IMG/VR virus record: IMGVR_UViG_3300042876_000418
Span: 25,962-89,961 of that record
From: a virus
Reading direction: 5' to 3' (one strand)
DNA length: 64,000 nucleotides
Within the stretch, counting starts at the first letter, position 1. Each line of letters begins with the position of its first letter. Made by a program: the position numbers and the translations under genes. The notes beneath the pieces were generated by a model. That model ran no database searches. It saw nothing but the letters and a program-made list of their open reading frames with translations, and was not told where the DNA came from. Positions 2,890-58,887 of the stretch are shown here, one piece after another.

Positions 2890-3642
2890 ATGAAAACTAT
2901 CTGTATCACCAACCAAAAAGGCGGGGTAGGAAAGACTACCACTGCCGTTAGTCTGGCCCACGGGCTGGCCCTACTGAAAAAGAAAGTGCTGTTGATCGAC
3001 TTTGACCCCCAGGGTCAAGCCGCAACCTGCCTGAATATGGAGCCGCGCAACGATGTATTCAACTGGCTGATTAGCGAGTCTCCCTACGACTCATGTGCCC
3101 AGGAAACCAGCCGGCCCCGCTTGCACCTGCTGGCAGGTAGCAAGAAAACGGCCACCGCTCAGACGGTCATCACCTCCAATCGTGAGCCGGTTGAATTTAT
3201 CAAGCAAGCCATCCAAGTGCTACTCAAAGGCCGCGGCTTCGATTACGTAATCCTGGACACGGCCCCCAGCCTGGGCGGCATTCAAGAGTTGGCTATTTTC
3301 GCTTCTGACTACCTGGTTATCCCGGCTTCGTGCAATTTCCTCCCGGTCGAGTCCATCGGTAAGACGCTTGAGACCGCCGGCGTCTTACGTGAGCGATTCG
3401 GGTGGGGTGGGCATCTGATTGGAATCCTCCCTACATTCCTTGACGAAAGGACCAACGAGTCGACTACCGTGTACAACGAGATCCGCGCGAAATTCAACGG
3501 GCAGACATTGACCCCGATTCACGCGGCTACTGTCCTTTCCGAGTGCCCGGCTGAAGGGTTGACCATCTTCGAGAAAGCACCCAAGAGTCGGGCGTCCAAC
3601 GAGTATGGCGCTCTTGTGCGCAAAGTCGCTGAGGTGAAATAA
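2890..3642 (+). CDS. parA: ParA/Soj-type partition ATPase
   Basis: ParA-family Walker ATPase that uses ATP-dependent DNA binding to segregate low-copy DNA. The 250-aa protein has the deviant Walker A KGGVGKTT (residues 9-16), LLIDFDPQG (about 35-43) and Walker B VILDTAPSLG (about 120). It lacks the long N-terminal helix-turn-helix of type Ia ParA, so it is the short type Ib/Soj class. It overlaps the downstream ribbon-helix-helix gene (TAATG) and is followed by 11-bp iterons, completing a partition cassette. Confidence 0.93.
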   Translation: MKTICITNQKGGVGKTTTAVSLAHGLALLKKKVLLIDFDPQGQAATCLNMEPRNDVFNWLISESPYDSCAQETSRPRLHLLAGSKKTATAQTVITSNREPVEFIKQAIQVLLKGRGFDYVILDTAPSLGGIQELAIFASDYLVIPASCNFLPVESIGKTLETAGVLRERFGWGGHLIGILPTFLDERTNESTTVYNEIRAKFNGQTLTPIHAATVLSECPAEGLTIFEKAPKSRASNEYGALVRKVAEVK

Positions 3643-3950
3643 TGGCCCGCCGATCTTCCACCGCTGCAATTTCAGATGAACCCGTTTCGGCATTCCTGCC
3701 GCCGGCGGAATCGCGCTCAAAGCGTGATCGTAGTTGGGAAGCCGAACAACGCAAGAAGGGTGTGGTCACCTATCGAGGAATCCCGTCCGATGTCACAGCG
3801 AAAATTCGCGCCGTGTCCGAGGAGTTGGATGTCCCCGTGGGCGACGTGGTGCGCCTGTTTTTGGAGCACGGGTTAGCCCAATACAAGGCAGGTGTGCTGC
3901 CCATGAAACCCCGGCTAATCAAGGGCAAGTATGGTCTCTACGGAAAATGA
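3642..3950 (+). CDS. Ribbon-helix-helix centromere-binding protein candidate
   Basis: 102-aa basic protein with a disordered N-terminus (about 35 aa) and a C-terminal segment VTYRGIPSDV ... followed by two helices ending near LFLEHGL, which fits a ribbon-helix-helix fold. Small RHH proteins (ParG/Omega type) partner short ParA ATPases and bind iteron centromeres. The evidence is the fold pattern, the ATG overlapping the parA stop, and the iterons starting about 25 bp downstream. Confidence 0.65.
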   Translation: MARRSSTAAISDEPVSAFLPPAESRSKRDRSWEAEQRKKGVVTYRGIPSDVTAKIRAVSEELDVPVGDVVRLFLEHGLAQYKAGVLPMKPRLIKGKYGLYGK

Positions 3951-3974
3951 GATATTTTTTTGTCCTCAGCCTTG

Positions 3975-4053
3975 CCGCTTGCGTCAATGTAAGCGGGCTG
4001 TAAGCGGCATGTAAGCGGCGTGAATACTTGACGCTTGCGGAGTGGTAAGCGGT
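3975..4053 (+). repeat. Iterons: probable partition (centromere) site
   Basis: GTAAGCGGSNT occurs three times at exact 11-bp period (3989, 4000, 4011), with a further GTAAGCGG at 4045. CGCTTGCG elements flank the array (about 3977 and 4032). Exact helical-turn spacing directly downstream of parA and an RHH gene is the expected layout of a type Ib centromere. An alternative is a replication-iteron array, but no initiator is adjacent. Confidence 0.75.
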
Positions 4054-4154
4054 AAGACTACAGGACGGGCTGAGACAAAAATTCACGGTATAGACGCAGG
4101 ATTTTACACAGTAGTGAAAATAGGCCCGGAATCTGGTAAAAGGTAGGCGTAAGG

Positions 4155-4682
4155 ATGATGAAGAAAACGAAAGTCGGTAACGGAATATTCACATCGTTTG
4201 AAATTGCGAATGGGGCGTGGTTCACCTGTACCCGATCCGCCTGTGGACATACGGAGTATTCAAGCGGGCGGTATTATCTCAAGCGGGCGAATCGCTGCCC
4301 GGTGTGCAAGTATGGGCTGTTCCTGTCTGAATTCTTTCTGAAAACTTACACCGCCTGGCTGGAAGAAAACGAGCCAACATTGCAACGGATGATTGCAGAT
4401 CATCACCGCTACCTGGCTACCCTGCGCGAAAAGTCGTTTTCCATCATGCTCAACGCCGCCGTGGATTGGCAATACCTGACGGTCAAAGCCGGGCGCATGG
4501 CCCATAAAAGCGAGTGCGATTCGTGGCTGATGACGCGGTACGGAATAGACGAATGCGCCGCGCGGGATATCACCAACACGATCACGTCCGGCCCGCGCCA
4601 CTTTATCACCGGTAACGATGGGGTATCGTGGATCGCTACCCGGCCAGAGCCGAAGGAGGAAGACTACCCAGACTTGAAATAA
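4155..4682 (+). CDS. Zinc-ribbon hypothetical protein, 175 aa
   Basis: Near the N-terminus, CTRSACGH and CPVC (about residues 25-51) form a zinc-ribbon-like cluster; the rest is helical without a known motif. Two adjacent ATGs (4155, 4158) follow GTAAGGATG. It follows the iterons, so it may be transcribed from a promoter inside them (TTGACG at about 4028). Confidence 0.6.
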   Translation: MMKKTKVGNGIFTSFEIANGAWFTCTRSACGHTEYSSGRYYLKRANRCPVCKYGLFLSEFFLKTYTAWLEENEPTLQRMIADHHRYLATLREKSFSIMLNAAVDWQYLTVKAGRMAHKSECDSWLMTRYGIDECAARDITNTITSGPRHFITGNDGVSWIATRPEPKEEDYPDLK

Positions 4683-5535: not shown

Positions 5536-6003
5536 ATGAAAATCGCTGTTATCCTTTTACTCACCGCTGTTATCGCCTTGGGATTGTGGTCTTTGATCCC
5601 GCCACAAAGTACTGCCGCGACTCGTCTTGACGTGGTTGAGGGTTGGGTATCCAGCCTGGACAAGCCGTCTACCAATCGCGGGATCGCTTACCATACCGAA
5701 AACTCAGGCATGACCTACGTTAGCCCGGCGGGCGGGATGGCGATCATGAAATGGGATGTTGACGGCGTGGGTGTTGGATTCGTGCTGCTCCGCAACCGGG
5801 GCGCGTGGTACAACGATAACGGCGGGTTTATCTCCAGCCCGACTACATGGGCCACTATTCGAGATGGAATCGTGGCGCTCGGATGGAGTGAGGCTGAAAC
5901 CGGAAAACAGAATCCCGGTAAAATGTCGGTAATGAAGGACGAAATCGACTCCGATGCAGGCTTGTCAATCTCTGATTTTTTGGCGAAGTTGGAAGGAAAA
6001 TAA
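5536..6003 (+). CDS. Secreted or membrane-anchored hypothetical protein, 155 aa
   Basis: Starts with one hydrophobic segment (IAVILLLTAVIALGLWSLI, residues 3-21), a signal peptide or anchor; the remainder would lie outside the cytoplasm. The ATG at 5536, preceded by TGGAGGATG, is chosen over farther upstream starts because those overlap the previous gene extensively. No enzyme motif is visible. Superinfection exclusion or another envelope function would be a guess. Confidence 0.6.
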   Translation: MKIAVILLLTAVIALGLWSLIPPQSTAATRLDVVEGWVSSLDKPSTNRGIAYHTENSGMTYVSPAGGMAIMKWDVDGVGVGFVLLRNRGAWYNDNGGFISSPTTWATIRDGIVALGWSEAETGKQNPGKMSVMKDEIDSDAGLSISDFLAKLEGK

Positions 6004-6005
6004 AC

Positions 6006-6218
6006 ATGTGGCGCGATGGAATTTTTATCGAACAGGGTGATTACGAATCCGATCTGATTTACTGCTCGGAGTGCGAGGTTCTTTTTAGCGGATCGCCAGA
6101 AATGCGCATTGAGCAGAAAACGGGCGGGAATCCGGGCGAAGAATTCCCGATTGACGTGGTGATTGCAAAGTACGCCTGTACAAATTGCGGGCATACGTGG
6201 GAAGAGGTGCAAGGATGA
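6006..6218 (+). CDS. Zinc-ribbon protein, 70 aa
   Basis: Two CxxC pairs (YCSEC near residue 19, ACTNCG near 58) separated by about 36 residues form a zinc ribbon. Starts 2 bp after the previous stop and overlaps the next start (6215). Confidence 0.6.
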   Translation: MWRDGIFIEQGDYESDLIYCSECEVLFSGSPEMRIEQKTGGNPGEEFPIDVVIAKYACTNCGHTWEEVQG

Positions 6219-6640
6219 AACAATCCGATCTTGATAAGCTGGAAGAGTTGCGCGCCAAAGCGGATATGCCGCGCGTGATGAAATTTAGCCCGGATAGTTT
6301 GAACGGGTGGAACACAATGTATATGCTCGTGCCTGAGTTCGGTAAGGTGCCCGGAATCGGGATTGAAATTTGTGAGCCAGTCCCAGGATTCGGGGATCTG
6401 GAAAAGCAGAAAACCCGCGCTGAGTATGTTGCCCTGGTCTGCAATATCGCCCCTGCCCTGGCTAAATCTAACGCAGCTATGATCGCCATCATGCGTGACG
6501 CTATTGAGCGGGCGATTGAAGCACAAGAGGAATGGGCGGACGTTGAATTGCCCTACGCGCCCGAGTGGGTGTACCCACTCCGCCAGATCGTCAATCTACT
6601 GACGAATGCCGTCGCTCAGGCTGAGGGGGAATCGTCATGA
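6215..6640 (+). CDS. Hypothetical protein, 141 aa
   Basis: Helical acidic protein, unrecognised. The start at 6215 has GTGCAAGG ahead and overlaps the preceding stop (ATGA), so translation is coupled; an upstream in-frame start would overlap the zinc-ribbon gene by 30 bp more. Confidence 0.6.
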   Translation: MKQSDLDKLEELRAKADMPRVMKFSPDSLNGWNTMYMLVPEFGKVPGIGIEICEPVPGFGDLEKQKTRAEYVALVCNIAPALAKSNAAMIAIMRDAIERAIEAQEEWADVELPYAPEWVYPLRQIVNLLTNAVAQAEGESS

Positions 6641-46148: not shown

Positions 46149-47615
46149 TTACGCGGTCGGACTGTAATACGACGGGCTTGTGGTGTCTCCCTGCGTCTTT
46201 CCCCCGTTGACATAGTACGAACTCGAACTAAATGGCGAACGCTGGTGCATCAAGGGGGAATATCGGATGGACGACAACCGCCCGGCCAGGTACGGAGTGA
46301 GCAGGATCAAGCGCGGCTCGGTTTTGGCTAACAACTGCACGCAGAAGTTAGTCGGTGGCTTTTTATGCCACAAAAACCGCCCGTTATCCGTGGTATAGAA
46401 CGAGTCGTTCGGGGCGAACACCTTCGCCATATCCACGGGGCCGCCCGGCACGTCGTAGTTGAAGTATTCCATGAAGGTCACGACCTGCCCGCCCAAGACG
46501 GTCATGGGGATGAAGTACAGGTCGGCGGTAAACGTGCCGTCCTGATTTTCGGTCTCGGGGATACCGTCGTCAATCTTCACGGGCACTTTCATGCCGTCGA
46601 TCAAGAGGTACTGGCCTTCGTACTTCTCCAGATCGCCGCGCATCGCTTCACGCATGGCTTCCATGTCGCTGGCGGTGACGTAGTTGGTGGACCCGGTCGG
46701 GACCAGACCCTGAGCGCGGTAGGTCATGTAGGCAATCGGCCACACTTCCGTGATTTCATAAAACATCCCGTAAGGCATGGTGATGACCCAAGTAACCGGA
46801 GCGAGGCCGGACTTCTGGGCGATGTACCGCAGGTTACGAAACATATAGGTCACGTTCCGAATGAAGCCGGCGGCATTGGTACTGAGCAGGGCATTACCGA
46901 AACTGGTGATGTAGCTATCGGACGCCGGGCAGGCCGTGCCGGTCTCAGCGTCGCGGTAGCCGGTATTGACCAGGGTTTCCAGGCCGTAAAACTCTTTGTA
47001 CCCACCCTGCGCGGTGTTGTTGCTGGTTGCGCCGGTGTAGAGCTTTTTGGCGAAGTCACGGGACCAGGAAACGCCCATTTCATACAGCGCTTTGCTCACT
47101 TCGTTCTGAGCGATGGCATTGGCATTGAAGCCGGGCATGTTCGGCACGTTCGGGTTCGGAGCGCTGCCATTCAGGGCGTTACCGTAGACGTTGAAGTCCA
47201 GGAACTCACCCCGGTTGACAGTCTTGCCGGCCCGGTCGATATCATAGACCCGGCTCATGCGGCTGAAGCGCCCCAACACAAACTGGTGGGTGCATAGCTT
47301 CATGGTGCCCGCAGTCGGGGGATCATCGCAAACGCCGGTAGCCTCGCTACCAGCCGACGCGGTGACCCCGGTGATGATCCCGAACAGCGGGTTGGTCTCG
47401 TTGGTCGGGCGCACTTCCAGAATACCCTGGAGGCCCATCGTGGGGAGGACCATTGCCGAGAACAGCGGTTTGGACAGGCCGGGCGAAGAGAACAGGCCGG
47501 CAGGGCCGTGACCGTAGGACGCGGACGGAGTCGAGGAGACACCCTTGTACCGGGTGCCGGCCTGCTCCAACATAGCCATTGCTAATTTCTGATAATCGAG
47601 GTCTTTCGGATCCAT
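46149..47615 (-). CDS. Major capsid protein, 488 aa
   Basis: Identified by size, by its place right after the protease/scaffold gene and by its own strong terminator. N-terminal segment SASYGHGPAGLFSSPGLSK (residues 31-49) may be part of the maturation region. The central part (EMGVSWSRDFAKKLYTG; TWVITMPYGMFYEI; QYLLIDGMKVPVKIDDGIPE) fits an HK97-fold capsid with P-domain and E-loop. C-terminus ends with a Ser/Tyr-rich tail. Confidence 0.82.
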   Translation of the reverse strand: MDPKDLDYQKLAMAMLEQAGTRYKGVSSTPSASYGHGPAGLFSSPGLSKPLFSAMVLPTMGLQGILEVRPTNETNPLFGIITGVTASAGSEATGVCDDPPTAGTMKLCTHQFVLGRFSRMSRVYDIDRAGKTVNRGEFLDFNVYGNALNGSAPNPNVPNMPGFNANAIAQNEVSKALYEMGVSWSRDFAKKLYTGATSNNTAQGGYKEFYGLETLVNTGYRDAETGTACPASDSYITSFGNALLSTNAAGFIRNVTYMFRNLRYIAQKSGLAPVTWVITMPYGMFYEITEVWPIAYMTYRAQGLVPTGSTNYVTASDMEAMREAMRGDLEKYEGQYLLIDGMKVPVKIDDGIPETENQDGTFTADLYFIPMTVLGGQVVTFMEYFNYDVPGGPVDMAKVFAPNDSFYTTDNGRFLWHKKPPTNFCVQLLAKTEPRLILLTPYLAGRLSSIRYSPLMHQRSPFSSSSYYVNGGKTQGDTTSPSYYSPTA

Positions 47616-51276: not shown

Positions 51277-52797
51277 CTAAACCCGCCCGATATGAAGCAG
51301 GGCATACATAAAATCGAAGTATTCAGGGTCTTTGGTGGCAAGCTCCCACCGTCCGGCGCTCGTGGCGAATTGGCCCATGCCCATAGAGACGATCTCGGTA
51401 GAGCCGTGATCGTAGATTTTACCCATATAGGCGTTGATAAACTTATCCTGTTTTGCGTACTCACTGGATCCATAAGCGCGATTGCCGGTAATTTGTTTAA
51501 GTGGGCGTTGCGATTCGCCTCCCGTTCTACTTGACAAAAACGCCTTAGCTGATTGGCGCACTAACGGATCCCTGTCCTCTAAGATGTGGCCTAGCTCGTG
51601 AGCCACGACTCCGGCAGAATCATGCTTAGAAATATTGATTTGCGTTCCATCGGCGTTTGCGCTCGCCCGCCCTGTAATCGCTTTCACAATAACCGACGTG
51701 CGCTCCATAAGGGGATTGCTACCAGCCACTTTGTTGAACACGGTAAATCCATCAGCTACGCTTGAATTTATATTTGATGGCGATTCAGGATGGGCATTGC
51801 CTGGGCTGCCGTGATCAAGGAAAGAATCTCCGCCTTTCATGATGTTATCAATCGCATAAGTGCGATCTGTTAATTCAGATAATTTGGTATGCATCTCCAT
51901 GTATTCATCATACTCTTTATCACTAAGCCCTGCGATTCCCCTGTCAATATATTTCTGTACAATCGGAATAAGGGCTTTCGCCTCTCTTTGGTTTTCTTCA
52001 CGAAATTTTCCGATAGCGCCGGTCGCTTTTTGCGGCATTGCCCTATCTCTGGCTTTCGCCGCTGCATCCATTGCGATCTCAAGCGCCCGCCGCCCATCTG
52101 TTTCAGAAATTATCTTATACTCCACCTCAGCCTTTATGGCGTCAAGATCCGCCGCTTTGGCGTCATCAGTTTTCGGGGTATTGGCGTCAAGTTTGATGTG
52201 CGCCAGTTTGCTTTTTAGATTCCGCTTGTAATCTTCGTACTCGAAAAACTTTTTATAATACGCATCGCTTTTCGCGTCATACTCGCTTTGCGCTTCCAAG
52301 TATTTCGGATCATCTAAGGACGCTTTTTGTTCTATGTAGATTTCGCGTTTCTTGGCTGAAGCGGTGTCCTTCTCTGCTTTCCTTTGCGCCAGTTCTTTTC
52401 TTAAGTCAGTCCCTTGTTTCTTTATCGCCTTGATTTGATCCTCTACACTAACCGTCCGAGTCGCGGCCTTCGCCTTTTCCGCCCTGGATTGCGTTTCTAC
52501 CACCTTAGCCCGGCCCGCCTTTACCTTCTCTTGTGCTGCCATGAATTCAGGATTTGCCCGCAATTCTGACTTGAATCGCTCCGCCGCCTGCCGCCCGCGT
52601 TTCTCGAATCCCGCCTGTAGTCGGGCGTATTTCACCTTGTCGTATGATTCGCCCGCCGCCGCGTCTGTAAATGCGCTTGACTGCGGAGCGCTGCCCCCAT
52701 GCTTGCCAGGCCGCCCGGAATGGCCGAAATTGCCGCTGCCGGGGCCACCCTTGAGGGATTGGATAAAGTATTCTGCGAACTGGTCGGTGATGGTCAT
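51277..52797 (-). CDS. Zincin-like head-associated protein, paralogue 2, 506 aa
   Basis: Begins with SLKGGPGSGNFGHSGRPGKH, then a long coiled coil (about residues 45-330) and a C-terminal VVAHELGHILEDRDP (HExxH zinc site; about 400) followed by GSTEIVSMGMGQF, whose Glu could be the third ligand. Almost the same architecture as the C-terminal part of the preceding head-morphogenesis protein. Likely a tandem duplicate; function may be proteolysis during or after assembly. Confidence 0.72.
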   Translation of the reverse strand: MTITDQFAEYFIQSLKGGPGSGNFGHSGRPGKHGGSAPQSSAFTDAAAGESYDKVKYARLQAGFEKRGRQAAERFKSELRANPEFMAAQEKVKAGRAKVVETQSRAEKAKAATRTVSVEDQIKAIKKQGTDLRKELAQRKAEKDTASAKKREIYIEQKASLDDPKYLEAQSEYDAKSDAYYKKFFEYEDYKRNLKSKLAHIKLDANTPKTDDAKAADLDAIKAEVEYKIISETDGRRALEIAMDAAAKARDRAMPQKATGAIGKFREENQREAKALIPIVQKYIDRGIAGLSDKEYDEYMEMHTKLSELTDRTYAIDNIMKGGDSFLDHGSPGNAHPESPSNINSSVADGFTVFNKVAGSNPLMERTSVIVKAITGRASANADGTQINISKHDSAGVVAHELGHILEDRDPLVRQSAKAFLSSRTGGESQRPLKQITGNRAYGSSEYAKQDKFINAYMGKIYDHGSTEIVSMGMGQFATSAGRWELATKDPEYFDFMYALLHIGRV

Positions 52798-55700
52798 TTG
52801 ATTCTCCCGAGGTGGAGTAAAGCATAAGTGAAGTTGAAATATTCGGGGTCGCGCTTTGACATGTAAAATCTACTCTCGGAATCCATCATATACTGGATAC
52901 CCATCGACACAATCTCGGTAGCCGCCGGGTGATCGCGATTCCCGTAAATCTTACCAACGTAAGGGGACATAAAACTATCTTTGATGGCTACTTCGTCATC
53001 TCGATATGGGTATCCGGTAAGGTCTCTTAGTTTTTCAACTGGCTGGTATTCCGTTCTCCACCTGAGAAATTCGGTAGCCAGCACGTTTATTGCGGGGTCG
53101 CGAGACTCAAGAGCATGGCCTAATTCATGGGTGACGTGCCACGGTGCCACCTGAGAATTGACAGATATGCCCGCGCCATTGAAATAAGCCCGGTCGCTAT
53201 TGTCGTAAGTAACTTTTATAGGGGATCGTTCCATGAGTGGGTTATGTCCAGCCAGGCGATTGAATGCGTCGAATCCCTCGTTGACTTTATCTTTGAAAAT
53301 CACAGCGGAGTCGACATCACTCCTGGCCTGCCCGGCCTCATTCTGAGAGAACAGCGATTCGCCCATTGCATCCCCAAGACGATTCGCCGCCTGTATACGC
53401 CCTTTTAATTCAATTTCCCGATCATGAAGTTTAGCCCATTTATCGCGCGTTTTTTCCGTATCAAGTAGCGGTCCCGTAACAAGCAACGGAAGGATACTAT
53501 CAAGTTCTGCCTGATGTTCTGCTTTGATCTTCGCAATAGCGCCGCCTACGCTTTCACTCATAACTTTTTGACGCAACTTATCAGCCGCTCGCATTGCAAT
53601 AGTCAGCGCCTTTTGCCCGTCCGTTCTGGCAATCTGTTCGTAGTCGCTTTTTGCCGTGTGAAAATCAGCAAGAGCTTGCTTAGATTCGTTTGAGATTTCG
53701 TCCTCACGGGCCATGATTGCATACGCTCTTGGAGCAGATACCGTTTTCTTGTACTCTCTGGTTTCGGCTTCAGCTTGCTTGATTTCTTCCAACTTTGCCG
53801 CGTGCTCAGTTGTTAGCTTGTCTAATTTGTTCTTGAGTCGGGTGTCATCAGGAGCGGCAAGGTGTTTGATTCGTGCCTCTACCATTTTCGCGGATAATGC
53901 ACTTTCTTCTTTTCGCTTTGTCAGTTCGTTTCTACTCAATTCGTCAACGCGGCTTACCATTGCGGCACGCTCTTTATCAAGCGCCCGCCTCTCTGCATTG
54001 AACACCTCCAACTTTGCGCCCGCCTCTACGATTCGCGCCCGCCCCTCATTGATCCGCCCCTGCGCTTGCATATACTCAGGATTGGATCGCAAGGTATCCT
54101 GAAACTTCGCCGCTAACTTTTCGCCGCGCCGCTTCAGCCCGGCCTCCAGCCGCGCATACTTGGCTTTGTCGCCCAGCGATTCGCCCTGTGGTGCAGAGCC
54201 GCCGTGTTTACCGGGCCGGCCTGAGTGCCCAAAGTTACCGCTCCCCTTGCCGCCCTTTAGCGCTTCGATCAATTCAGATTCTAGCCGCTCTTTCACCTGG
54301 TAGGAATAGTTGGGGAGGACCAATTCCCAACCGCGAATCTTGAGAGGATTCCATTCGATTCCTCTTTGGATACATTGCTGGCAATTGTGAACGACAAACC
54401 CGTTAGCGATATAGTGATGAACGTCTTCAACCTCAAAATTGTAAACGTAGACTCTTTCGTGTTTATTGGGTATAATATATCTATGATTAACACTGTCAAG
54501 ACGCAATTCATTTGTAACTTTTGCGGGAAAGAGTTCATCCCGCATTCGAGAGGGGGCAAGCATATGTACTGCTCTATCTTGTGCCGAAACTATGCGAATT
54601 CCAAGAAAAACGTAGCAAAGATTGGAAGGTGCTGCGTAAAATGCGGGCGTTATATGGTTCATCGCATTTACGATACTTGCCCAACCTGTGGAGGCCCAAG
54701 AAGAAACCCGCGCCCAACGTCTAAACCAAGAGTTATAAGAAATAAACGACATAGTCGCTGGACAGATTCCCAGATTGAGTATCTTATGTCTCACTACACT
54801 ACAGATGGATGCAAAGAGGTCGGAAAAGCTCTTGGGCTTGATCCTATAAAAGTCAGGACCAAAGCGAACAACTTGCATCTTACAATCAGCAAAGAGACGG
54901 CAAAAAGAATAGTTTATGAAACCTCCAGGGTTCGCATGACGGAATCCAACCCAATGAAAAACAAAGAATCTCTCGATAAGATGAACAAGTTTTGGGAAGA
55001 TCATCCCGAGAAAGATAGGCAGAGATTTGAGAGTTTCCGCGCATCGTCTTGCGAATACCAAAAGACTCATCCAAGCAAACTTGAAATAAAGTTCATGACG
55101 ATTCTTGACCAAATTGGAATCAGGTACGAGTCCTATTTTATGATCAAGGCTAAATTTATTGTCGATGTAAAAATCGAAAATTTTATTATTCAGGTTGACG
55201 GCGGATACTGGCATGGTCACCCGCGATTCAATCCACTTACCGAAAGGCAAGCGAAACAGCAAGCCAGGGATCGCGCCCAGGACGCCTATCTTACCGCCTG
55301 TGGATACACCGTCATTCGTATTTGGGATGAAGACGTTACTAAAGATAAAGTTATCGCTACTCTCAAGCAATACGGATTGATCTGAAGGCTTTAATTCGTC
55401 TGCTCTAATCCATCCTCTTTGGGTCAAAAAGGGGTGATTGGGAGTACAGGAAACAGACTTGTTACCAGATTTTACGGTAACAAGTTTTCCTTTATACTCT
55501 CTCTTGAATACCGTGATAACTTTTTTGGGACCGTTCATAGTGGTCACGATATCGCCAGTCCGAATTAATTCTATCGGCTTTTTACCGGACGGAGTCTCAA
55601 TCGTTGTCCCTTTCGGGAAACAATGCTCTACTTTTGGAGATGGATCTAGCACCCAATAGCAGTCGTAATCCCCGTCCGCTCCCTCTGGCTTTGCCATGTC

Positions 55701-56210
55701 TGCCCCCTGGACAGGAACGATCCTCCAGGAACAGCGGTCGTTTTGCCCACAGGAGCTTGAGAGGTCTCCAGGAATTGCCGGTAGTGGCAAACTTCCAATT
55801 GTACCCGCCCAATACGGCTCCACAATTGCGCCGGTGTACATCTCTGCCCGATTCTTCCACGCCTTCCAGGGTGCCCCCTCGTAATCAAACCACGTCTTTG
55901 GGGTGTACCCTGCCGCCGTGGCGTTGGCCACTTCGATATTGATCGTGTCCTTGAACCCAGCCAGGAAGTCAAGTTGCTTGCGTAGTTGATCCGCCGCCCG
56001 CTTGAATTCAGTCTCAGCCAAGGTACCCTTACCCGATCCGAGCATATAGGCCGCCGCGATGTGCCGGGATAGAGACAGTCTCATCGCCGTGTGCCACTGG
56101 TCAAGGGTGATGTTCCCATATTGGAACGCATCGAATAACTTGACGATATCCGCCTGGAATCCGTCGAACAACGGAATCAGGTCAGCGGGCAGGCCGGCGC
56201 TACTGGTCAT
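52794..56210 (-). CDS. Head morphogenesis protein with intein and C-terminal zincin domain, 1138 aa
   Basis: The N-extein (residues 1-196) and the start of the C-extein resemble Mu F-like/SPP1 gp7-like minor head proteins, with SSCGQNDRCSWRI and EHC|QQC as a putative zinc site. The intein is residues 197-609. After splicing the 725-aa product continues with LKGGKGSGNFGHSGRPGKH, a coiled coil and THELGHALESRDP (HExxH) ... ATEIVSMGIQ. Directly after the portal gene, overlapping it by 11 bp. Confidence 0.85.
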   Translation of the reverse strand: MTSSAGLPADLIPLFDGFQADIVKLFDAFQYGNITLDQWHTAMRLSLSRHIAAAYMLGSGKGTLAETEFKRAADQLRKQLDFLAGFKDTINIEVANATAAGYTPKTWFDYEGAPWKAWKNRAEMYTGAIVEPYWAGTIGSLPLPAIPGDLSSSCGQNDRCSWRIVPVQGADMAKPEGADGDYDCYWVLDPSPKVEHCFPKGTTIETPSGKKPIELIRTGDIVTTMNGPKKVITVFKREYKGKLVTVKSGNKSVSCTPNHPFLTQRGWIRADELKPSDQSVLLESSDNFIFSNVFIPNTNDGVSTGGKIGVLGAIPGLLFRLPFGKWIESRVTMPVSAVNLNNKIFDFYIDNKFSLDHKIGLVPDSNLVKNRHELYFKFAWMSLLVFARRCAETLKSLPIFLGMIFPKLVHLIERFFVFHWVGFRHANPGGFINYSFCRLFADCKMQVVRFGPDFYRIKPKSFSDLFASICSVVRHKILNLGICPATMSFISYNSWFRRWARVSSWASTGWASIVNAMNHITPAFYAAPSNLCYVFLGIRIVSAQDRAVHMLAPSRMRDELFPAKVTNELRLDSVNHRYIIPNKHERVYVYNFEVEDVHHYIANGFVVHNCQQCIQRGIEWNPLKIRGWELVLPNYSYQVKERLESELIEALKGGKGSGNFGHSGRPGKHGGSAPQGESLGDKAKYARLEAGLKRRGEKLAAKFQDTLRSNPEYMQAQGRINEGRARIVEAGAKLEVFNAERRALDKERAAMVSRVDELSRNELTKRKEESALSAKMVEARIKHLAAPDDTRLKNKLDKLTTEHAAKLEEIKQAEAETREYKKTVSAPRAYAIMAREDEISNESKQALADFHTAKSDYEQIARTDGQKALTIAMRAADKLRQKVMSESVGGAIAKIKAEHQAELDSILPLLVTGPLLDTEKTRDKWAKLHDREIELKGRIQAANRLGDAMGESLFSQNEAGQARSDVDSAVIFKDKVNEGFDAFNRLAGHNPLMERSPIKVTYDNSDRAYFNGAGISVNSQVAPWHVTHELGHALESRDPAINVLATEFLRWRTEYQPVEKLRDLTGYPYRDDEVAIKDSFMSPYVGKIYGNRDHPAATEIVSMGIQYMMDSESRFYMSKRDPEYFNFTYALLHLGRIK
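54384..55622 (-). other. Intein in head morphogenesis gene with antisense endonuclease
   Basis: 413 residues from Cys (55622-55620) to Asn (54386-54384), followed by the +1 Cys. N-block: CFPKGTTIETPSGKKPIEL and SVSCTPNHPFLTQRGWI (TxxH block B). C-block: YVYNFEVEDVHHYIANGFVVHN. Residues 1-79 and 381-413 are the splicing domain. Residues 80-380 are the antisense of a plus-strand endonuclease gene and do not resemble a protein domain. The frame stays open throughout. Confidence 0.9.
54483..55385 (+). CDS. Vsr/DUF559-type homing endonuclease, antisense inside the intein, 300 aa
   Basis: The start at 54483 (MINTVKTQFICNFCGKEF) is chosen because TATAAT lies just upstream (54471-54476). N-terminal zinc knuckles (CNFCGKEF, CCVKCG, CPTCGG), a Myb/SANT-like helix region (WTDSQIEYLMSHY), a NUMOD3-like NPMKNKESLDKMNKFWED, and a C-terminal PD-(D/E)xK/Vsr nuclease: HPSKLEIKFMTILDQ, KFIVDVKIENFIIQVDGGYWHG, TACGYTVIRIWDEDV. 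Its codons match the intein's codons triplet for triplet. Stop at 55385 falls opposite intein residue 80. Confidence 0.88.
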   Translation: MINTVKTQFICNFCGKEFIPHSRGGKHMYCSILCRNYANSKKNVAKIGRCCVKCGRYMVHRIYDTCPTCGGPRRNPRPTSKPRVIRNKRHSRWTDSQIEYLMSHYTTDGCKEVGKALGLDPIKVRTKANNLHLTISKETAKRIVYETSRVRMTESNPMKNKESLDKMNKFWEDHPEKDRQRFESFRASSCEYQKTHPSKLEIKFMTILDQIGIRYESYFMIKAKFIVDVKIENFIIQVDGGYWHGHPRFNPLTERQAKQQARDRAQDAYLTACGYTVIRIWDEDVTKDKVIATLKQYGLI

Positions 56211-58887
56211 TGTGTACCGTCGCTATCGCTTTGGATTTGATCGCCAGTTTACGCGCCGCTGCAAGTTGAGAGCGGAGCAGGGTGTCAATGTCGTCAGTCG
56301 GCCTCCCTTTCGCCTCTTTCGCCGTAGAGCGTGGTTTGACGGTCACCTTGTCAATTACATCTTGAATGTCTAATTTTTGCGTAGCGGGCACCGTAGAGGC
56401 TGGAGGGGCCATTGTAGCCGGGGTGGTAGTCTGCGATTGCCGCTGTAATTCGGTATCCACTTCATCGTCCGGGTCTTCGGTATCACTCAAGTTTTCCTCA
56501 GCCGTGTGGGCGGTGGTCTGGAATTCCTTTGGCAACTCATCCGCGTCGATCATGATCTGCATTTCCTGTTGAGCTGTGGTAATGCCCTTGTCAATTCTGA
56601 CGCCGGCTACATCGGCCCGCTGTTTGCTAATCTTGATCTGCTGGTCAATATCGCGGTAGTCCTTCTCTGTCCACTCGAATTCCACACCATCAGGTAACAC
56701 GTAATGATTGAGGGCATGGGTGAACGCCTGCCGAAACGCAACGAGTCCCTTACCCTGGGCTTTGTCAGCCAGGACCGTTGACTGAGTGCCGCCGCTCAGG
56801 CCCTGCCCGGATAGGGGCTGTAGCTCCTGGATATCCAACCCAATCGCGTTGGCATAAGTGAGCACCGCGATATCGAATTCTTCTTTCCGGTTGAACCGAT
56901 CCGGGATTTCAGCCAGGGGGATTGAAACCAATGAGGGCTGTTGGTCCTGGGGCACGCCCACGATAACCGCGCCCATGTAGGCCGTGATACCGCGCGATAC
57001 CTGGTCGCTCTTGACGGCTTCAACCGCGCCCGAGATTTGCTTATCCAGCACGCCGTTGACAATGTGAATAGCCAGGGGATGAAGGCCGCCCACCTTTTCG
57101 CGTAAGTACCATTCGATTGTAGCCAGTTTGTAGATAGCGAAGTATGCTCTTGAAGCGGCTGAAAGTCCCACCCCGTAATACGTCTCGCCGGGGTCCGGCA
57201 TATCTGCAAACATGATGATCTGATAGTCCTTCATCTCGTGCAATCGCCCGTCCCGACTCCGGTAGATAACCGGAATGTCAGGATTGCCCGTGCGTTGACA
57301 ACGGATGGAGTCTAAGTGACGCAAGCCGATGATCTTGGATCCAATAGATTTGGTTTCGCGTATGATCTCAATAAACGCTCCATTGTCGGTACAGTTATGC
57401 ACAACCATATTGGCGGCTATGAAATTTTCAGTTTCCTCAACCCCAATATTGAAAGTTGTTTTTTGATAAGAAATGCCAGTCGTTGGATTTTTTTGACAAC
57501 TATAAACAACTTTATCATAAGCTGCACTTGCGGGATTTACAAACTTCGTAGATTCGTCATAGGCGGGCGCGTCTTTGGGAAGTTTATAACGCATAGGGTC
57601 GGGGATATAAGATCCCATGTATTGAACTAACCGCCGCGTTCCTTCGGCTGTAACATAAATGACAGGATATTTTTTACCATTCTTCATCCCCATCATAGTC
57701 AAATGGCAAGGAAATCCTTTTTCTGATAGGAAATTTGCAAGCCATTCCACGTCATCAACAGTAAACCCATTTGTATAAAGGTTCATCGTTGGGGTGGTAA
57801 AATTTCCAGCGCGCGTTTTATGTGTAAGGAAAGACCCATCATCACAGAACCACGCCGCCATCATTCTTGGAGAGAAGTATTTCTGAATATATTCGCGCGG
57901 TACAATCTTTTTCCCTTCTGGGTACCATGCTTGATACCACGGGATCAAAGCAGTGCTGCCGCGACTATTCACTGTAACGGATACGGAATGCCCTTTTCCG
58001 TATCCTCGAGTGTTTGGGTTTACCTTATAGCCCGTCCATTGAAACCCAGACAGGATTTCTTGCTTGTACTGCAACCATACTTCTTGGGCAAGGCAATGTC
58101 CAAAACGAAGAACGGCGCGTTTTTTTATCATACTCATGCTTGCGTCCCCAAGCATGGTGCCTGTCATGAGTTGAGCTTGTTCTTCTGACGGATCAAAATC
58201 TCCAGTTGCAACCATCATTCCAGGAGTGATGTCTTTTGCTTCCACCCATCCATCCGTTGTTAGGAACGGGTGATTATCGGTTGCAAATATACCGCCCGGA
58301 TTAGTGCGCCCATGATTTGAATTTTCAAGAGATATCCACCACCATTTTCGATCCCCAAGTGGATTTTTAAACCAATTATTGATTGGTCTTTCGACTATCC
58401 TGCCATTGGAATCAACGCTCAAAACCGGGCCTGGGTCTCTTTCCTGGACGATATCTCGAATCGATTTTGTTTGCCCGATTCTATCTCCGCCCATCTTGAT
58501 TCTTGCTTCGCCAGAAAGACACAGGAAATCCCTAAGTGTCTTGCTGATGAACCCTACCCACCCCACCCGCGATCCATCCGCGCCGATTAGAAGCTGTTGG
58601 GCTTCCTTCGCTTTGCGGGGGTGCTTCGTTTTGATATTGAACGCCTGGCTTGCCACCTTTGTGATTGCAATCCCAATAGCGCCGGCCCACATGGCCTCGT
58701 GATGAACAGTAGCACGAAGCACAGCATCCCGGCTGTAACTCCAATACGGCGGGGGTACCGGGGGCAGTGCGATTCTATCGTAGCCGGCATAATACGGCAC
58801 GATGAAGTTGATCACCGCGCCGTTGGATACACCGGGGATCTCTTTTGCGGTTACGCTTTTCTGTAGGAAATCGTCTTCTTCAGCCAT
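56200..58887 (-). CDS. Portal protein with intein, 895 aa (519 aa after splicing)
   Basis: The spliced product fits a phage portal: N-terminal Pro-rich entry (LPPVPPPYWSYSRDAVL), TLRDFL|CTDNGAFIEIIRET, the conserved-looking GLRHLDSIRCQRTGNPDIPVIY stretch, PGETYYGVGLSAASRAYFAI, and IQELQPLSGQGLSGGTQST, with a helical C-terminus. The intein (residues 123-498) separates L and C. Preceded by GTGAGGTAAC. Next to the minor head gene, the usual portal neighbourhood. Confidence 0.88.
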   Translation of the reverse strand: MAEEDDFLQKSVTAKEIPGVSNGAVINFIVPYYAGYDRIALPPVPPPYWSYSRDAVLRATVHHEAMWAGAIGIAITKVASQAFNIKTKHPRKAKEAQQLLIGADGSRVGWVGFISKTLRDFLCLSGEARIKMGGDRIGQTKSIRDIVQERDPGPVLSVDSNGRIVERPINNWFKNPLGDRKWWWISLENSNHGRTNPGGIFATDNHPFLTTDGWVEAKDITPGMMVATGDFDPSEEQAQLMTGTMLGDASMSMIKKRAVLRFGHCLAQEVWLQYKQEILSGFQWTGYKVNPNTRGYGKGHSVSVTVNSRGSTALIPWYQAWYPEGKKIVPREYIQKYFSPRMMAAWFCDDGSFLTHKTRAGNFTTPTMNLYTNGFTVDDVEWLANFLSEKGFPCHLTMMGMKNGKKYPVIYVTAEGTRRLVQYMGSYIPDPMRYKLPKDAPAYDESTKFVNPASAAYDKVVYSCQKNPTTGISYQKTTFNIGVEETENFIAANMVVHNCTDNGAFIEIIRETKSIGSKIIGLRHLDSIRCQRTGNPDIPVIYRSRDGRLHEMKDYQIIMFADMPDPGETYYGVGLSAASRAYFAIYKLATIEWYLREKVGGLHPLAIHIVNGVLDKQISGAVEAVKSDQVSRGITAYMGAVIVGVPQDQQPSLVSIPLAEIPDRFNRKEEFDIAVLTYANAIGLDIQELQPLSGQGLSGGTQSTVLADKAQGKGLVAFRQAFTHALNHYVLPDGVEFEWTEKDYRDIDQQIKISKQRADVAGVRIDKGITTAQQEMQIMIDADELPKEFQTTAHTAEENLSDTEDPDDEVDTELQRQSQTTTPATMAPPASTVPATQKLDIQDVIDKVTVKPRSTAKEAKGRPTDDIDTLLRSQLAAARKLAIKSKAIATVHNDQ
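57394..58521 (-). other. LAGLIDADG intein in portal gene
   Basis: 376 residues from CLSGEARIKMGG to NFIAANMVVHN|C. Block B ATDNHPFLTTDGWVEAKDI. Two LAGLIDADG motifs (MTGTMLGDASMSM and MMAAWFCDDGSFL) indicate a conventional in-frame homing endonuclease. It interrupts the conserved portal region after RDFL. Confidence 0.93.

Follow-up and report, generated by a model that had tools for sequence, protein, structure and literature searches.

A putative head gene in the stretch of viral DNA analysed here, termed the window (64 kb of an 89,961-bp IMG/VR virus record), in all likelihood carries a mobile cis-splicing intein whose homing endonuclease is overprinted on it in antisense. This was the first interpretation of the locus, namely an intein with a homing-type endonuclease in antisense codon register, and the sequence evidence supports it. 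The layout is no one-off: 15 further full-length antisense copies were found, and it proves to be recurrent and mostly unannotated. Intein splicing, use of the promoter, cleavage and homing are inferred.

The host gene and its intein

The minus strand of the window holds one long gene that spans an intein:

52794..56210, minus strand: host gene, putative minor head protein (open frame; Intein_splicing match, 7.2e-15)
54384..55622, minus strand: intein of 413 residues, class 1 type (sequence motifs and modelled HINT fold)
55362..55622, minus strand: N-terminal splicing half of the intein, residues 1-87 (in blocks of ten residues, pLDDT is about 73-89 as far as residue 80 and drops past 87)
55434-55445, minus strand: block B TxxH of the intein
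54459..55361, minus strand: linker, residues 88-388 (301 residues), which is the nuclease gene read antisense; no confident fold
54384..54458, minus strand: C-terminal splicing half of the intein, residues 389-413, with the His-Asn end
54381..54383, minus strand: Cys +1 of the C-extein, the first Cys of the host CxxC and the insertion point of the intein

The reading frame comprises 1138 codons with a single, terminal stop and runs unbroken through the intein, in which Cys1, the TxxH of block B and a C-terminal His412-Asn413 followed by Cys +1 make up the full set of sequence marks of a class 1 intein. Frame and motifs together confirm the earlier statement that the gene is open on the minus strand across a 413-codon intein with both splicing blocks. 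Modelling of the intein ends with AlphaFold2 gave a HINT fold, for which the best PDB match (Foldseek) was the gp41-1 intein (6qaz, E 1.6e-6), and the two halves are accordingly predicted to have the fold that defines class 1 inteins. The model is confident for residues 1-87 and 389-413 only, with pLDDT below 50 throughout the linker (residues 88-388).

The product of the host gene is putatively MuF/SPP1-gp7-like, judged by its position and its CxxC site: the gene immediately upstream of it, 56200-58887, also contains an intein and is taken as the portal gene. The original designation as a head gene holds for the relatives, whose exteins at like sites match Phage_Mu_F or VG15 (Pfam), whereas a Pfam search with the window exteins themselves gave no head-protein match; the putative head-protein identity of the latter is drawn from gene position and from those relatives. 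The upstream neighbour 56200-58887 (minus strand), portal-like by position, contains an ordinary in-frame LAGLIDADG intein (LAGLIDADG_2, 3.2e-25), so that adjoining genes hold inteins of differing architecture.

The antisense endonuclease gene

The plus strand carries a second gene between the splicing blocks:

54483..55385, plus strand: endonuclease gene, 300 aa (DUF559, 2.1e-5; PDB profile and Foldseek matches)
54513..54689, plus strand: N-terminal zinc-ribbon region (C11, C14, C30, C34, C51, C54 and C69 invariant in 8 relatives)
55077..55370, plus strand: EDxHD catalytic domain (E201, D228, D239, W243-H244 and D263 invariant; alignments, predicted fold, Foldseek)

As first described, this 300-codon gene has its ATG (at 54483) opposite intein residue 380 and its stop (55383-55385) opposite residue 80, and its triplets coincide exactly with those of the host gene (register 0). 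Under the genetic code, coinciding codons should give rise to host-frame stops solely from nuclease TTA, CTA and TCA codons; as Leu and Ser have alternative codons, an inserted nuclease could lose all host-frame stops with its own protein unchanged. That every antisense case found lies in register 0 fits this reasoning. A recount agreed with the earlier figures for codons coinciding on both strands: none of the 13 Leu or the 16 Ser codons is TTA, CTA or TCA. When the avoidance was set against phage codon usage, as had been proposed, the probability of zero forbidden codons in the window nuclease gene was 0.0036, falling to 1.6e-5 under the gene's own third-base composition. A sequencing error affecting the minus frame, which had been named as a point that would count against the interpretation, is implausible because the same layout recurs in many independent records.

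The product is predicted to be a zinc-finger, Vsr-like homing-type endonuclease, in which zinc ribbons and a helical DNA-binding region accompany a Vsr-like EDxHD catalytic domain. Its earlier assignment as a Vsr/DUF559-type nuclease was borne out by Pfam (DUF559, 2.1e-5; among 8 aligned relatives DUF559 was matched in 7 and Vsr in 4), by PDB profile searches (3r3p, the I-Bth0305I catalytic domain, 4.8e-8; Vsr 1cw0, 0.035) and by the predicted model (mean pLDDT 80), for which Foldseek placed 3r3p first (8.6e-5) and Vsr 1vsr third (1.7e-3). D239-G240 is also among the invariant residues of the catalytic domain, and in the alignment the catalytic and zinc residues of the window nuclease are all intact. 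Both hallmarks of EDxHD-type enzymes are present, namely a Vsr-like fold with E, D, xH and D, and a seat in the intervening sequence of a conserved gene.

Recurrence of antisense nucleases

Viral contigs were scanned for an intein C-end next to a CxxC and, separately, by alignment to the nuclease, and one genome scan was added. Counting the window, 16 full-length antisense cases within inteins were found, all in register 0. Three close relatives lie in head genes at the same xAEH/CxxC site as the window (L190, GQAEH/CDDC; L195, GMAEH/CSSC; L196, GRAEH/CIDC; the slash marks the insertion point), and L036 and its near-copies have an antisense nuclease at a similar site, GDTDH/CNDC. Other antisense holders of the same family are L035/L048 and near-copies, L039, L049, L055, L064 and L067, together with L183, L243, L267 and L274, the last being the genome of a bacterium (Gordonibacillus kamchatkensis VKM B-2647). 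The nuclease stop falls 49-81 residues into the intein (66-81 in 15 of the 16), at or close to the place where inteins usually carry their endonuclease. Across the 16 full-length cases, no TTA, CTA or TCA was observed against about 122 expected, a total that describes selection in these cases and is not an unbiased sample, as open frames were part of what led to their recognition; under the same model, 68 stand-alone relatives have 886 forbidden codons against 1019 expected, each with at least 3. In the HEN tree the starred branches require at least 4 label changes, a figure that comes from few columns and long branches and in which the changes may be losses.

Some candidates were set aside or reclassified. 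L048 was at one point considered to have a broken nuclease, but was found intact on closer inspection. L191 was rejected as an antisense-intein case as there are stops in its flanks; it is a stand-alone gene (3464-4427, 40% identity) with 357 codons of its antisense frame still free of stops, and it is perhaps a nuclease that has recently left an intein. L042 (4093-5505) is a 162-aa mini-intein in which 101 antisense codons are left of the nuclease; it is likely a decayed stage of the element.

Antisense nucleases were also found in phages that are named laboratory isolates and in other nuclease classes. Gp5 of Gordonia phage Malisha (L277, OP434458.1) is a VG15 head protein (1.4e-30) with an intein (7.9e-6) and an in-register, antisense Vsr-like nuclease (profile E 3e-14), and the head protein of Edwardsiella phage MSW-3 (L287, ORF-6) probably has one as well (1.2e-7); in both, catalytic residues seem to have been lost and the intein frame is still open. 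In Gordonia phages Barsten (gp15, with Phage_Mu_F at 1.3e-10) and Lennon (gp16), the antisense frame reads ..YVAAFIDGEGTVTV.., which by eye has a LAGLIDADG-like pattern, though with no Pfam match, whilst the antisense product in L135 is an HNH_3 protein (8.6e-9). In the records examined, none of the antisense genes in these named phages or of these other classes is annotated.

Selection on the two reading frames

The alternative that survives best, although improbable, is that of a canonical or remnant endonuclease intein, in which the antisense gene no longer functions or does not matter, and what selection maintains is the minus-strand linker. The linker is indeed open in every copy, and decay does occur, since Malisha and MSW-3 have lost some catalytic residues and L042 keeps a remnant only. 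Against this, natural sequence pairs reveal which frame is conserved. L035 and L048 hold the same gene in two phages and differ by about 1% in exteins and splicing halves but by 10% in the nuclease region, which suggests a segment that looks as if it had been exchanged. The 86 changes in this region comprise, in the nuclease frame, 34 nonsynonymous (64.2 expected) and 52 synonymous (21.9 expected), giving an omega of about 0.22. The host frame has 65 nonsynonymous changes where 62.9 were expected and 21 synonymous where 23.2 were, which gives an omega of about 1.1. Barsten and Lennon, with another nuclease, repeat the result independently: the antisense frame has 35 nonsynonymous (65.3 expected) and 54 synonymous (23.7 expected) changes (omega about 0.24), and the host frame 69 (63.7 expected) and 20 (25.3 expected), respectively (omega about 1.4). 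The selection test concerns relatives rather than the window locus. Identities point the same way, both between the window and its relatives (34-44% in the nuclease frame, 20-25% in the linker) and among distant pairs (34-51% and 19-28%, respectively). From the opposite omegas and this contrast in identity it follows that selection keeps the nuclease sequence and, on the other strand, only the absence of stops; in the two natural pairs there is purifying selection on the nuclease frame and not on the intein linker. The changes therefore spare the amino acids of the nuclease and not those of the linker, and a dead gene also sits poorly with the intact catalytic and zinc residues of the window nuclease and with a linker that has no predicted fold.

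The insertion site and its empty alleles

Relatives of the locus were found through the neighbouring gene 56200-58887, used as a portal query (45-60% identity), and two of them have an empty site in the next head gene, which reads ..AEHCQTCVERHRAWNPL.. (..AEHCQTC..) in L030 and ..AEHCVDCLQRAKDWNPL.. (..AEHCVDC..) in L033. At the corresponding place the window reads ..VEH, then the intein, then CQQCIQRGIEWNPL.., and deletion of the 413 intein residues restores collinearity with both, at the first Cys of the CxxC. The comparison of empty and occupied alleles that had been suggested has thus yielded both kinds, with L190, L195 and L196 as the occupied relatives at like sites. Exteins were less informative as queries: no relatives were found with the C-extein, the joined exteins matched only through a GSGNFGHxGRPG repeat motif, and a search of INPHARED with the exteins gave no match. 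The repeat motif GKGSGNFGHSGRPGKHGGSA occurs in the window at 51277-52797 and 52794-54383 and in loci L004-L026; many phage proteins of structural or toxin-like type share it, and a single genome often has several copies.

These sites bear on a further reading, again with little probability and slightly less than the last, in which the nuclease is a stand-alone enzyme directed at another target (such as a rival phage or a gene nearby) and the intein is merely a safe seat. Stand-alone relatives do exist (L191; mycobacteriophage Kari), and specificity is not readable from sequence; however, the closest relatives are found repeatedly at like head-gene sites, and empty sites exist, as homing predicts.

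Predicted expression of the nuclease gene

As the nuclease gene lies opposite the head-gene strand, it needs a transcript of its own. A candidate promoter is found immediately upstream:

54448..54476, plus strand: sigma-70-like promoter, TAGACT-17-TATAAT (TATAAT at 54471-54476, 6 nt before the ATG)

The TATAAT had been noticed at the outset as a possible promoter element; with TAGACT 17 nt upstream of it, it probably forms part of a promoter, one of moderate score (shuffle p 0.037). No Shine-Dalgarno sequence was seen upstream of the window ATG, and the transcript is possibly leaderless. Better promoters precede the gene in relatives (TTGACA-16-TATAAT in L190; TTGACT-17-TATAAT in L035 and L183), and AGGAG or AAGGA follows the promoter in L039, L183, L243 and L267. 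A promoter score of at least 10/12 was reached in 6 of 15 upstream regions, compared with 0.66% of same-strand control windows (binomial 4e-10); these promoters may be in use.

Proposed mechanism and comparison with known systems

In the model that we favour, a nuclease gene would have entered an intein in reverse orientation, at the place where endonucleases usually sit, taking the register in which codons coincide, the sole antisense one where synonymous choice alone could avoid host-frame stops. The head precursor would be translated through the antisense copy of the nuclease, yielding some 300 linker residues that appear to be unfolded, and intein and linker would then be excised together by the two HINT halves. 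The nuclease, expressed from a promoter of its own on the opposite strand, would cut the empty head-gene site in co-infecting phages, and repair would copy the whole element.

Canonical large inteins carry their endonuclease (LAGLIDADG or HNH) in frame. The window element resembles them in that two HINT halves flank an endonuclease at the usual position and homing mobility is expected, but its endonuclease is encoded on the other strand and lies outside the intein polypeptide. The nuclease itself shares its catalytic fold and the residues E, D, xH and D with I-Bth0305I (3r3p) and Vsr (1vsr), and differs from them in being longer, in having N-terminal zinc ribbons and a helical DNA-binding region, and in lying antisense to an intein.

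A closer parallel is offered by the 'fractured genes' that Dassa et al. reportedly described in 2009, in which split inteins are associated with homing endonucleases of the EDxHD/Vsr-like type. These reportedly also combine a phage gene, a gp41-1-like intein and an I-Bth0305I-type nuclease between the intein halves with control signals of its own, and a separate endonuclease gene does lie between the halves here, though on the opposite strand. This resemblance of modules is what lends some credit to a split intein or fractured gene, with halves acting in trans and a long minus frame that is coincidental. Such a reading is nevertheless improbable, a shade more so than a nuclease with some other target: fractured genes are two ORFs and the window host gene is a single one, and the host frame is unbroken in the window and the 15 further cases, with zero forbidden codons. 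With an unbroken host, one precursor and a nuclease gene overprinted codon for codon on the other strand, the window element is best read as a continuous counterpart of 'fractured' genes. As for a chance antisense open frame, codon-biased genes do yield such frames: in 26 other window genes the longest antisense-open runs are 44-176 codons, except in the capsid-like gene 46149-47615, where strong codon bias explains a run of 321. Chance is practically impossible, though, for an ORF that belongs to a real protein family, has invariant catalytic residues and recurs across independent genomes. The 310-codon plus-strand ORF in that capsid-like gene (46365-47297, opposite 46149-47615 on the minus strand) was considered as a second antisense pair and rejected as a codon-bias artefact of the sense gene.

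In the ShiLan element, an out-of-frame HNH gene lies on the same strand within a phage methylase and no intein splicing domain was found (PMC11855218). The window element likewise has a homing-type nuclease overlapping an unbroken host frame, but here the nuclease is antisense and an intein is present. The same paper cites Gosselin, Arsenault and Gogarten 2025 (bioRxiv 2025.01.02.630785), 'Actinobacteriophage inteins: ... non-canonical architecture', which, as far as that citation goes, may cover inteins whose endonucleases lie in other frames, the Gordonia phages named here perhaps among their hosts, and so overlap in part with the present work. Endonuclease-bearing inteins as such are known; the antisense overprinted endonuclease may be a new variation on them, subject to that possible overlap.

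On balance, we lean towards regarding antisense in-register inteins as a distinct recurrent class, in which at least three nuclease families (EDxHD, HNH and LAGLIDADG-like) would have entered backwards, each with its own promoter, the genetic code channelling the invasion; such overprints could precede gene fracture. Standard annotation removes overlapping genes of this class, in which one strand encodes a linker that would be spliced out and the opposite strand the nuclease that would mobilise the element. The layout provides a testable route for the entry of endonucleases into inteins, natural inteins with a 300-residue linker that is free to vary save for stops, and a clean natural system for the evolution of two antisense reading frames, whilst the named Gordonia phages make bench tests possible.

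Other nuclease orientations in phage inteins

The sequence-only reading held that inteins normally carry their endonuclease in frame, which was not the case among 82 phage inteins collected by one C-end motif, a motif-biased sample with some classes assigned by eye: the nuclease was out of frame in 64 (60 sense, 4 antisense), in frame in 10 and absent in 8. Relatives in sense orientation, which that reading had named as grounds for rejecting it, do exist, and the antisense case stands beside them: inteins of L236/L271 and L259 carry the same nuclease family in frame, those of L237/L241 and L249 carry it out of frame on the sense strand, and stand-alone genes of the family occur in L191, in mycobacteriophage Kari (convergent with a methyltransferase gene) and in others. 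The in-frame and sense out-of-frame relatives indicate that this family enters inteins in every orientation. Same-strand HNH genes in phase 2 within an unbroken host gene were seen in L003 (3842-6625, with 5734-6351) and in many of L074-L187, the phase-2 cases sitting in terminase-like and other phage inteins. Helicase inteins, including those of Vibrio phages CP-T1 and 1.194.O and Corynebacterium phage phi673, hold EDxHD-type nucleases in phase 1.
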